Origin: Thermoanaerobaculum sp.
GTDB taxonomy: Bacteria; Acidobacteriota; Thermoanaerobaculia; Multivoradales; UBA5704
Direction: 5' to 3'
DNA length: 64,000 nucleotides
NCBI GenBank assembly: GCA_021154885.1
Contig: JAJKHS010000053.1
Coordinates: 1 to 64,000 of the forward strand
Shown here: in pieces, positions 4,013 to 7,751 of the stretch
How positions within the stretch are numbered: position 1 is the stretch's first letter
Layout of the letters: every line of letters begins with the position of its first letter
Made by a program: the position numbers and the translations under genes
The notes under the pieces: model-generated
The model's database searches: none
What the model saw: the letters and a program-made list of their open reading frames with translations, nothing else
Told to the model about the DNA's origin: nothing

Positions 4013-5158
4013 TCACTTGGGCTGATTAGCAGAGTTGTTAACAGAGAGCGCGGGGAACCGCATCCACTCGCCGGGCAGCGGCAGGGTCCAGCGGGAGCTG
4101 GAGGGGCCGCAGACCGGGTTTGTGGGGCCGGCGCCGGACGGCGAGCCGCAGCCGAGCTCGCGACAGATCGTCTGCAGGTAGGTCTCGACCTTGGCGTCCG
4201 TGAGGAGGGAGACGAAGCGTACCGGGCGGTCCTGCTGGCGCATGAAGTCGTCGTAATGAGCTACCAGGACGTGGCGCGGTCGCAGGGTCTTCAGGATCGC
4301 GGCGGGCTGGCCCTTGGCCTTGTCGTAGGAAGCGATGCAGAGGACGGCGAGGTCGTAGGGATGGCCGTCCGGGAAGGAGGGGGGCTCGCCGATCCCCTGC
4401 CGGTTCGCGGCGTCCTGGTAGTAGAAGCGATAGCGCACGCTCTGAAGATCGCTCGACATCAGGTCGACCACCAGCGCGAAGGTCTCACCTGCCTTCAGGT
4501 CGTAGAAGCGGTGGGAGGTCCACGGCTCGCGCCAATCCTCTTTCAGAGGGCCTTTGGCCCAGAGGTAATGGTCGATCTGCGGCGCGTGCTCGGAGGGGAC
4601 GGCGAAGAAGCGGATGGGCCGCTTCTCGCCCCCCGGGCCGGTGAGCCAGACCCACTGGCCGGAGCCGTCTTCGAGCGCCGTCGTCCGGGCGGCAGCATAG
4701 GGGGCGAGGGCGTGGGCGCCGGAGCGATTGACGTAGACCCGGGCGCGGGGCGCCAGGGCGAGGACGGCGGGGAGGTCCCCGACGTGGTCGTAGTGCGAGT
4801 GGCCGGCGAAGATGGCCTCGACGTCGGAGACGGGCAGACCGCCAAGCCCGCGCTCGATGGCCGGGCCGTTCGCCCGCCAGCGCCCGAGCAGGACCCGGAG
4901 CAGGCTGGGATTCGAGAAGAATGGCCCCAGCAGGATCGAGTCGTCTCCCCAGCGCAGGTAGAGGCCCGCGGCTCCCAGGTAGCGGACGTCCACCGCGGCG
5001 CCCTTGGCCGGCGGCCCGGCGGGTGGGCCTGCGGGCTGACACGGGGGACTCTCGAAGTCGAAGGGTGCGCCGGGGTGGTTCGGGGCGTTGCGGACGATGT
5101 GCCCGCACCCCAGGCACAGGACGATCCCCGCCAGGAGGACGGGACGGCGCCAGGGCAT
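4013..5158 (-). CDS. Metallo-beta-lactamase-fold hydrolase, exported or lipid-anchored
   Basis: This 381-residue protein has an N-terminal hydrophobic segment ending in LCLGCGH, a lipobox-like site with Cys18. The metal-binding motif HSHYDH (H120, H122, D124, H125) is intact, and later His/Asp residues (VAHYDD near residue 310) are candidates for the second metal site. The fold resembles UlaG/NAPE-PLD-like MBL hydrolases; the substrate is unknown. The ATG at 5158 overlaps the stop of the upstream gene (TGATG), so it is translationally coupled to the small protein and the protease before it. The C-terminal 60 residues are Pro/Gly/Ser rich. Confidence 0.85.
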   Translation of the reverse strand: MPWRRPVLLAGIVLCLGCGHIVRNAPNHPGAPFDFESPPCQPAGPPAGPPAKGAAVDVRYLGAAGLYLRWGDDSILLGPFFSNPSLLRVLLGRWRANGPAIERGLGGLPVSDVEAIFAGHSHYDHVGDLPAVLALAPRARVYVNRSGAHALAPYAAARTTALEDGSGQWVWLTGPGGEKRPIRFFAVPSEHAPQIDHYLWAKGPLKEDWREPWTSHRFYDLKAGETFALVVDLMSSDLQSVRYRFYYQDAANRQGIGEPPSFPDGHPYDLAVLCIASYDKAKGQPAAILKTLRPRHVLVAHYDDFMRQQDRPVRFVSLLTDAKVETYLQTICRELGCGSPSGAGPTNPVCGPSSSRWTLPLPGEWMRFPALSVNNSANQPK

Positions 5159-5445
5159 CAGAGCTTCTCGAGCCCCGGAGCCTCCAGGCTCACCGGGCCC
5201 TGCTCGATGACCTGCGTGGCCACCGGATGGCTCTGGCTGCGTCCGGGGACGTCCAGGGTCTTGGGGACGAGATCGGCGGCGGCGAGCCGATCCTCCGGGA
5301 CTTTCTCGGCGACGTAGACCGCGAGGTCCCAGCCGCCAGCGGCTTTTTCGGATGGCACCCGGCCAAGCCCGACGACGTTCTTCTTGCGCGACAGCTCGCC
5401 GCCGAAGAGATCGAGCGCCCTGCGGACGTGCTCGGCGTTGGCCAT
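5158..5445 (-). CDS. Small stand-alone paralogue of the protease N-terminal domain
   Basis: This 95-residue protein starts at the ATG at 5445, which overlaps the stop of the protease gene (TGATG), and its own stop overlaps the next ATG in the same way. It shares RRALDL near the N-terminus with the upstream protease, and the same layout follows: N-[IV]-x-G-x-G, then a strand ending AVYVAEKVP in this protein and LKVYVERKLP in the protease, then a D-x-P-x2-L-x-V/L-P-G element. It lacks the protease domain. By analogy with propeptides it could be an inhibitor or chaperone of the protease, but that is inference. It is easily missed because a longer ORF in the same frame begins upstream inside the protease gene. 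Confidence 0.75.
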   Translation of the reverse strand: MANAEHVRRALDLFGGELSRKKNVVGLGRVPSEKAAGGWDLAVYVAEKVPEDRLAAADLVPKTLDVPGRSQSHPVATQVIEQGPVSLEAPGLEKL

Positions 5446-6455
5446 CAGATCGCCTGGGTCACGATCTCGATGCCGAGCGCGTCGAGGACGTTGGTGATGC
5501 GGTTGAAGATGCTGGTCGAAGGGGTGCCCGCGAAGTGCAGGCCCACGATCTGGTTCTGGCTGTTGAAGACGGCCGCGCCGCTGTCGCCGCCGGCGGTGAA
5601 GCGGCTGCACAGCACCTGGTCGCGCAGGCCCACGTTGCCCTCGCCGCCCTCCGGCTTCGGGTAGGAGAGCGCGGTCCGGAAGTCGACGTCGGTGATCTCG
5701 CCTGTCGTCAGGTCGGTGGTGCGGCCGACCTTCTTCACCTTCATGCCGCGCCGGAGGTTTTTGCTGATCCCCTTGGGCACCCCGATCAGGCTGACCGCCG
5801 AGGTGACCTCCTTGGGGTTCTTGACCAGCGCGATGGCGGCGTCGACCAGGTTGTCGAAGGTGCTGTCGCCGAACTTGAAAGGCACCCATTCGGCCAGCTC
5901 GCAGAGGACGTCGGCCGGCTGGAGGCCGCCGTCGAACACGGCGGATTGGAGGACGACGTCCCCCTTCTTGCCGGTCCCCGAGTTGGCGAGCACGTGGGAG
6001 TTGCTGAGCACGTAGAGCTCGGGCTTGCCCTTCTTGCGCACCAGGCAGCCGAAGGTGCCGGCCGTGACGTCGAAGTGACCGAGGCCGCAGCCGGGCATGG
6101 CGGGGCGATGGCGCGAGGTGTTGGCTTCGAGCTGCACCTTGCCGATCTCGTGCACGTCCGTGGGGACCGGCTCTTTCATCCCCGGCAGCATGATCTGCGG
6201 CGGGATGGGGGCGTCCACCTTGCCGAGCGGCAGCTTGCGCTCGACGTAGACCTTGAGCGCGACCTCGTCCAGCTTCTTCCCCTTGGAGATGCGCTCGGCG
6301 ATGCCGAACCCCTGGATGTTGGGATCGGTCGTCCAGGAGCTGGGATGCTCCTCGGCAGCGAGGCCCATGAGCCGGAAATCGCCGCCGGCTTCGGGCGGCG
6401 GCGTAGTCACGAGGTCGAGGGCGCGACGGAGGTTCTGCAGGTCGTTCTTGGCCAT
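5445..6455 (-). CDS. Trypsin-like (chymotrypsin-fold) serine protease with N-terminal prodomain-like region
   Basis: Residues 1-115 form an N-terminal domain related to the small protein encoded next. Residues about 130-336 form a trypsin-like protease with a full triad: His154 in LSNSHVLAN, Asp205 in NLVDAAIAL, and Ser292 in AGGDSGAAVF. No signal peptide is visible, so it is probably cytoplasmic or exported in another way. It is the first gene of a three-gene coupled unit ending with an MBL-fold hydrolase. The layout resembles bacterial Nal1-like/S1 proteases, but I am not sure of the subfamily. Confidence 0.85.
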   Translation of the reverse strand: MAKNDLQNLRRALDLVTTPPPEAGGDFRLMGLAAEEHPSSWTTDPNIQGFGIAERISKGKKLDEVALKVYVERKLPLGKVDAPIPPQIMLPGMKEPVPTDVHEIGKVQLEANTSRHRPAMPGCGLGHFDVTAGTFGCLVRKKGKPELYVLSNSHVLANSGTGKKGDVVLQSAVFDGGLQPADVLCELAEWVPFKFGDSTFDNLVDAAIALVKNPKEVTSAVSLIGVPKGISKNLRRGMKVKKVGRTTDLTTGEITDVDFRTALSYPKPEGGEGNVGLRDQVLCSRFTAGGDSGAAVFNSQNQIVGLHFAGTPSTSIFNRITNVLDALGIEIVTQAI

Positions 6456-6491: not shown

Positions 6492-7751
6492 TCACCCCGG
6501 CGCCTTCTCCTCCCAGATGCGGCTGAGGTGGACGATCACCTCGACGGCCTTCTCCATGTCCTGGGCCGAGACCCACTCGAAGCGGGAGTGGAAGTTCTGC
6601 TCGCCGGCGAAGAGGTTGGGGGTGGGCAGGCCCATGAAGCTGAGCCGCGAGCCGTCGGTGCCGCCGCGGATGGGCTTCTCGCTGGGCTGGAGGCCGGCGC
6701 GGCGGACGGCTTCGCGCGCGTTCTCCACCACGTCCGGATGATGGTCCAGCACCTCCCGCATGTTGCGGTAGCTCTCCTCGACTTTGGCCTCGAAGGAGGC
6801 GCCGGGCCAGTCCGCCACGGTCCGCCGGGCCAGTTCGGCCAGGAAGCCCTCCTTCTCCTGGAGGCCGGGGGTGCGGAAGTCGCGGATCAGGAGCTTCACC
6901 GAGGTCTTCTCCACGCCGGCGTTGACCACGTAGGGGTGGACGTAATCCTCGTAGCCGTCCGTGGTCTCGGGGGAGAGGCGGTCCTTGGGCAGGCGGGAGA
7001 TGAAGTTGGCCGCCACCTTGATGGAATTGACCATCGTCCCCTTGGCATAGCCGGGATGGGTGTTGCGGCCCTGGAAGGTGATGGTCATGGCGTCGGCCGA
7101 GAAGCTCTCGTACTCCAGCTCGCCGCGGGCGCCGCCGTCCATGGTGTAGGCGTATTTGGCGCCGAACTTCGCCACGTCGAAGTGCTTGGTGCCGGTGCCG
7201 ACCTCCTCGTCGGGGGTGAAACCGATGCGGAGCGTGCCGTGGGGGATCTCCGGATGGGCGAGCAGGTACTCGGCGGCGGCCACGATCTCGGCCACGCCGG
7301 CCTTGTTGTCGGCCCCCAGGAGGGTGGTACCCGAGGCGGTGATGACGTCGTCGCCGATCCGCTGCCGCAGATAGGGGATGTCGGCGGCGCGCAGGACGGC
7401 CGTGGGGTCGTCCGGCAGCACCAGGTCCTGGCCCTGGTAGTGGCGGTGGACGATGGGCTTGACCCCGGCGCCGCTCATCTCGGGCGAGGTGTCCACGTGG
7501 GCGATGAAGCCGATGACGGGCACGCCGGTCTTCTGCGTGGTGGCCGGGATGGTGGCCATGACGTAGCCGTGCTCGTCGATGGCGGCATCGTGGAGGCCCA
7601 GAGCCTTGAGCTCGTCCACCAGGTGGCGCAGGAGGTCGAGCTGCTTGGCCGTGCTGGGATAGGTCTCGGAGGTCTCGGTCGACTGAGTGTCGAAGGTTAC
7701 GTAGCGCAGGAAGCGCTCGACGCACGAGGTGTGGAACGGGGTCTCGGACAT
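6492..7751 (-). CDS. pepT: Peptidase T (aminotripeptidase, M20 family)
   Basis: The 419-residue length and motifs match PepT, which removes N-terminal residues from tripeptides using two zinc ions. Visible metal and catalytic motifs are FIAHVDTSPE, LLGADNKAGVAEI, TPDEEVGTG and YTMDGG, with a late His in NFHSRFEWV. The ATG start at 7751 has a purine-rich GGAAGAGG about nine bases upstream. It is cytoplasmic and a housekeeping gene. It lies 36 bases upstream of the protease trio on the same strand and could be co-transcribed with it. Confidence 0.95.
   Translation of the reverse strand: MSETPFHTSCVERFLRYVTFDTQSTETSETYPSTAKQLDLLRHLVDELKALGLHDAAIDEHGYVMATIPATTQKTGVPVIGFIAHVDTSPEMSGAGVKPIVHRHYQGQDLVLPDDPTAVLRAADIPYLRQRIGDDVITASGTTLLGADNKAGVAEIVAAAEYLLAHPEIPHGTLRIGFTPDEEVGTGTKHFDVAKFGAKYAYTMDGGARGELEYESFSADAMTITFQGRNTHPGYAKGTMVNSIKVAANFISRLPKDRLSPETTDGYEDYVHPYVVNAGVEKTSVKLLIRDFRTPGLQEKEGFLAELARRTVADWPGASFEAKVEESYRNMREVLDHHPDVVENAREAVRRAGLQPSEKPIRGGTDGSRLSFMGLPTPNLFAGEQNFHSRFEWVSAQDMEKAVEVIVHLSRIWEEKAPG

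Follow-up and report, generated by a model that had tools for sequence, protein, structure and literature searches.

A stand-alone NAL1_N-like domain protein is encoded directly behind a bacterial NAL1-like protease and is a candidate for its detachable subunit

In the stretch of 64,000 nucleotides from Thermoanaerobaculum sp. that was analyzed here (contig JAJKHS010000053.1; "the window"), the gene for a trypsin-fold serine protease, P0001, is followed by the genes for a protein of only 95 amino acids, P0002, and for an MBL-fold hydrolase, P0003 (Table 1). This arrangement raises the question of what such a small protein might do next to a protease, and whether the hydrolase belongs to the same system. 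A first-pass annotation had described both gene junctions as TGATG overlaps, and this was confirmed in the window sequence, in which they read ATC-TGATGGCC and CTC-TGATGCCC. From these overlaps we infer that the three proteins are produced jointly. The possibility that P0002 is a spurious frame in high-GC DNA was ruled out by its homology (see below) and by the GC fractions at its three codon positions (0.78/0.44/0.87), which are gene-like. Upstream of the protease, a putative gene for a PepT-like aminopeptidase is located on the minus strand at window positions 6492-7751. Its end is separated by 36 bp from the protease gene, which follows on the same strand, and the protease transcript may therefore take in this gene as well.

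Table 1. Location of the features of the protease locus within the window.
Feature	Position	Strand	Remarks
NAL1-like trypsin-fold serine protease P0001	5445..6455	minus	336 aa; Pfam Trypsin_2, Trypsin; NAL1 PDB chains E 1e-12
P0001 N-terminal region with NAL1_N-like domain (residues about 34-111)	6114..6455	minus	profile and Pfam matches
Predicted catalytic His154 of P0001	5994..5996	minus	invariant in 38 aligned proteases
Predicted catalytic Asp205 of P0001	5841..5843	minus	invariant in 38 aligned proteases
Predicted catalytic Ser292 (GGDSG) of P0001	5580..5582	minus	invariant in 38 aligned proteases
Stand-alone NAL1_N-like domain protein P0002	5158..5445	minus	95 aa; start codon overlaps protease stop (TGATG)
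MBL-fold hydrolase P0003	4013..5158	minus	381 aa; lipoprotein-like signal; TGATG-coupled; judged outside the system

The protease belongs to the NARROW LEAF 1 (NAL1) group, and its N-terminal domain is the Pfam domain NAL1_N (PF25608). An alignment of P0001 with four bacterial relatives retrieved rice NAL1 from the PDB sequences (Table 1), and a profile of the N-terminal domain alone also found NAL1 in the PDB (E 1.5e-4). Six of seven N-domain rows matched PF25608 at E 1 or better, the best of them at 4e-7, and NAL1_N precedes the trypsin-like domain in P0001, in the same order as in NAL1. The AlphaFold2 model of P0001 (pLDDT 88) matched NAL1 in a Foldseek search with E 1e-16. When the protease domain was aligned structurally, streptogrisin and alpha-lytic protease were the best matches (Z 23-24), and NAL1 reached Z 20-21. 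The residues of the predicted catalytic triad, H154, D205 and S292, are intact, and the linker RxRPAPGG was found to be strongly conserved, and not variable, in the aligned proteases. No obvious signal peptide was found in P0001, and a Pfam search yielded no match at E 1 to PF02983 (Pro_Al_protease) in either P0001 or P0002.

The similarity of P0002 to the N-terminus of the protease had been noticed before and was assigned to protease residues 10-90. The homology was verified, while its extent had to be revised, because BLASTP aligned P0002 with protease residues 7-111 (30% identity over 109 columns, E 4e-6). A domain profile of 149 copies from other genomes, with the window proteins left out, found both P0002 (E 4e-12) and the N-terminal domain of P0001 (E 5e-15), and the best of 1000 shuffled sequences reached only E 0.11. 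Therefore, the likeness is real and not due to chance, and the middle protein is indeed homologous to the N-terminal domain of P0001 and encoded as a protein of its own. These two were the only copies that the profile found in the 8.2-Mb assembly. With PF25608, P0002 alone scored E 0.054, which is under the curated cut-off, while other free copies scored above it; part of one loop that is present in the consensus is missing from the domain of P0002. A recent local duplication as the source of P0002 was ruled out, because it is no nearer to the N-domain of its own protease than to most others (30% identity, rank 93 of 134). Judged from the sequences, it may have been separate for a long time, or it may have been acquired. 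The free copy of another locus, L111, had the domain of its own neighbouring protease as its nearest relative.

The AlphaFold2 model of P0002 (pLDDT 88) has the order helix-strand-strand-short helix-strand, which is also the order in the N-terminal domain of the P0001 model. Thus, the two do not have unrelated folds, but share the predicted fold of the NAL1 N-domain. In a fold search of the PDB with P0002, NAL1 chains were on top (Z 6.0-9.8 for the NAL1 N-domain). Next came three crystal entries of one protein, the alpha-lytic protease pro region (Z 5.2-5.6, 2.3-3.0 Å over 58-72 residues); all other matches had Z values of at most 4.0, and the guide value is Z 8. With a Z under 6 this match to the pro region is modest, and it covers the N-terminal part of the latter. 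The alpha-lytic pro region contacts its protease mainly through another part. Given the modest Z, the origin of the three entries from one protein and the lack of a sequence match to the prodomain family, the modelled resemblance of P0002 is suggestive only; still, among all PDB folds it points to the prodomain of just that protease group which the catalytic domain resembles as well. When P0002 was compared with a viral structure library, uncharacterised proteins of phages and giant viruses matched weakly.

The search for the same gene set in other genomes revealed that protease and free domain, as a pair, recur in unrelated genomes. Searched with the domain profile, 6 of 72 genomes from the order and 23 of 396 from the phylum contained the domain; for the phyla to which the Chloroflexota and the Bacillota loci belong, the numbers were 9 of 400 and 155 of 398, respectively. 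A NAL1-like protease is also encoded on 72 viral contigs from IMG/VR (L133-L204). On one of these the protease is interrupted after the motif LSNNHVLAA by an intein-like insert, which begins with CFDDETEVLVENG and ends at a WSGN junction (L201:2294-4378), and on two others, L156 and L160, it forms the start of frames of 1623 and 883 amino acids, respectively. In the neighbourhood of 132 distinct proteases, the domain was recognised with E below 0.01 in 13 small frames of the same strand, a threshold that was passed by no shuffled decoy. One of the 13 (L178) was not counted as a free domain, because it represents the front part of a protease gene that is interrupted. Strand-matched small homologues adjoin the protease in L041, L049, L063, L089, L094, L110, L111, L120, L121, L129 and L179. 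The P0001/P0002 pair is thus not unique, and the free domain is a real and recurrent companion of NAL1-like proteases, which was found at roughly twelve further loci from several phyla, and additionally on Rhizobium plasmids and a viral contig.

Most of the sampled proteases had no free copy nearby. A broader scan covered 3816 small frames, a pool that is biased to protease loci, and all of the matches listed in it either adjoin a protease or represent unpaired free copies. A second profile was trained on eight downstream small proteins, so that the strong scores of these eight under it are circular; with the main profile, four of them were significant (L041, L063, L089, L094) and four were weak (L010, L011, L050, L092). 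Six genomes contained an unpaired free copy together with a further copy of the domain, which mostly resided in a frame of protease length. Two unpaired copies from Clostridia share their chromosomal location, next to yabG- and veg-like genes, and both genomes have another copy elsewhere in a protease-length frame. At the Clostridia loci L115-L118 and L127 a protease or a free N-domain was observed near yabG- and veg-like sporulation genes. The incomplete assembly G002, from the genus of the window, contained a free copy, and no protease was found in it.

The position of the domain relative to the protease turned out to be variable. In most proteases it is N-terminal. An extra gene for the free domain lies upstream of the protease in L110, L111, L120, L121 and L129 and downstream of it in the window, L041, L063, L089 and L094, and on the two Rhizobium plasmids (L130, L131) a small copy is situated divergently beside the protease. 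On the viral contig L179 protease and domain are split: the protease has no copy of its own, and the domain is encoded 10 nt away in a different reading frame. Nine proteases, of which six are from the order of the window, have the domain fused to their C-terminus, and several of these nine were found with a profile of the small downstream proteins that had been trained without the C-terminal fusions. That fused, split and relocated forms all exist speaks most strongly for a joint function of free protein and protease, and the free protein is probably a partner subunit of the latter. A domain that can stand at either end or on its own implies non-covalent docking on the protease or on the sister domain.

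Several of these loci had additional features. The proteases with a C-terminal domain include L009, L012, L023, L024, L028, L100 and L102, and several have starts that resemble signal peptides, which suggests an exported branch of the family. A lipoprotein-like protein that ends in the small domain is encoded about 1 kb downstream of a protease (L007:3471-3878), and a longer, N-extended protein with the same ending is encoded near a protease at L049:2175-3200. On the Rhizobium plasmids the protease lies beside a radical SAM gene and a gene annotated as "HEXXH motif-containing putative peptide modification protein", a group that could be a peptide-maturation cassette.

The explanation that we favour, with slightly more confidence than doubt, is that P0002 is a detached alpha/beta domain that docks on NAL1-like proteases and controls their activity or assembly in trans, probably in a prodomain-like way. 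Its direct basis is the homology of the free and the fused domain, their shared predicted fold, the repeated adjacency, the split gene, the N- and C-terminal fusions and the intact catalytic residues. Speaking against it are the majority of sampled proteases with no free copy nearby, the modest fold match to the pro region and the missing PF02983 match of P0002, the free copy in the incomplete assembly G002, where no protease was found, and the weak similarity of the small proteins of L010, L011, L050 and L092 under the main profile. P0002 would be translated directly after its protease and would most likely bind to the protease barrel or to the fused sister domain. From there it could control activity or assembly in trans, in a direction that we infer. 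Acting like a prodomain, it would probably help the protease to fold, and it could cap or restrain it until the complex is rearranged. By analogy, folding help together with activity restraint is our leading guess, because the fold resembles that of a prodomain with both roles: the alpha-lytic protease prodomain has been reported to be required for folding and to act as an inhibitor of the enzyme (PMC2605481), and has been described as a foldase and inhibitor (PMC2605481, PMC2829044).

The earlier proposal of a regulator derived from a prodomain thus survived in part. It agrees with the free N-domain copy, its NAL1 N-domain fold, the recurrence, and the alpha-lytic pro region as the next fold match, while a plain, removed prodomain does not fit, as the domain is C-terminal in nine proteases and is retained in crystallised NAL1 chains. 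The same observations bear on the stricter alternative of an inhibitor in trans, in which P0002 would block the mature protease at its active site, similar to free propeptide-like inhibitors. The fold resemblance to the alpha-lytic pro region and the reported dual role of that prodomain (PMC2605481) are in line with it; nevertheless, we regard it as unlikely, because the C-terminal fusions, the strongly conserved linker and the retention of the domain in the NAL1 crystals disfavour a simple, removable N-terminal plug. About as likely as pure inhibition is a role in assembly, in which the domain would form contacts between protease copies and the free copy would enter into mixed assemblies or cap them. 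In many of its PDB entries NAL1 has three or six chains that include the domain, and the occurrence of the domain at either terminus or free would also fit such a subunit.

Two further alternatives appear improbable. P0002 might be a substrate adaptor that recruits client proteins to the protease, and the variability of the domain outside its core as well as the unpaired and lipoprotein-like copies would be compatible with this; however, no client-binding feature was found, and nothing specific spoke in favour of it. Or P0002 might be a decaying duplicate without function, given that it has lost part of a loop and that P0002 as a query had no match in either of two genomes of the same genus. 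This has similarly poor prospects in view of the intact frame, the confidently predicted fold and the recurrence in several phyla, and the two Clostridia copies that share a chromosomal location are 61% identical, with saturated silent changes and a dN of 0.35. A dN/dS comparison from G358 and G426 comprised three differences only.

A functional set of three genes including the MBL hydrolase, as the first-pass annotation had envisaged, was rejected and is very improbable: despite the TGATG coupling of P0003 to P0002, the eight P0003 homologues in the order (38-46% identity) had neither a protease nor an N-domain gene in the roughly 1.5 kb that were covered on each side, and in G022 homologue and protease are on different contigs. 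An MBL gene is also found upstream of free domain and protease in the Chloroflexota genome L110, but it matches Lactamase_B, another Pfam family than that of P0003. Near 78 other proteases only one MBL-like motif was detected, in a frame that is possibly not a gene, and P0003 looks exported by its lipoprotein-like N-terminus, while the protease does not. P0003 is therefore judged to be a bystander, and the arrangement of the three genes is best seen as local.

It is tempting to speculate, although we hold this more doubtful than not, that the NAL1-like proteases of bacteria and plants are intracellular cousins of alpha-lytic protease, which have kept a module with the prodomain fold as a regulatory subunit that is either permanent or can be detached and that, in bacteria, is often encoded separately and acts in trans. 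If true, this would represent a propeptide-like regulator for trypsin-fold enzymes, and the bacterial pairs suggest an evolutionary link from the prodomain of a secreted enzyme to an intracellular regulatory subunit. In rice and maize, NAL1 sets leaf size and flowering via the degradation of TOPLESS-type corepressors (PMC12915138). A description of the role of its N-domain was not found in the literature searched, and the bacterial pairs, in which this domain has been cut loose or moved to the other end, offer a direct way to test that role. No text naming both NAL1 and alpha-lytic protease was found in that literature, which lacked the NAL1 structure papers.

Four known systems invite comparison. 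Avs1 (AVAST type I) has MBL and protease components, and in the window MBL-fold and trypsin-like proteins are likewise encoded side by side; however, no PADLOC model matched P0001, P0002 or P0003 up to E 1, and an Avs1-like defence system was therefore rejected. Stand-alone propeptide-like inhibitors are represented by I9 for subtilisins and by I29, e.g., CTLA-2, for papain-like proteases. Like P0002, they are free proteins that are related to the N-terminal domain of the supposed target protease; they act on different protease clans and their inhibition has been demonstrated, whereas P0002 is known here from its sequence and predicted structure. Alpha-lytic protease (family S1E) has the protease fold closest to P0001, and its pro region ranks next after NAL1 among the fold matches of P0002. 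In contrast to P0001, which lacks an obvious signal peptide and a PF02983 match, it is a secreted enzyme that loses its pro region by cleavage, and the domain of the NAL1-like proteases can be C-terminal or separately encoded. A search for PF02983 in 199 genomes gave one weak match and none in the control genomes. Plant NAL1, with PF25608 followed by a trypsin-like domain, has the same domain order as P0001, and both domains match by profile and by fold. Compared with it, P0001 is bacterial and shorter, and an extra, stand-alone copy of the N-terminal domain is encoded beside it.
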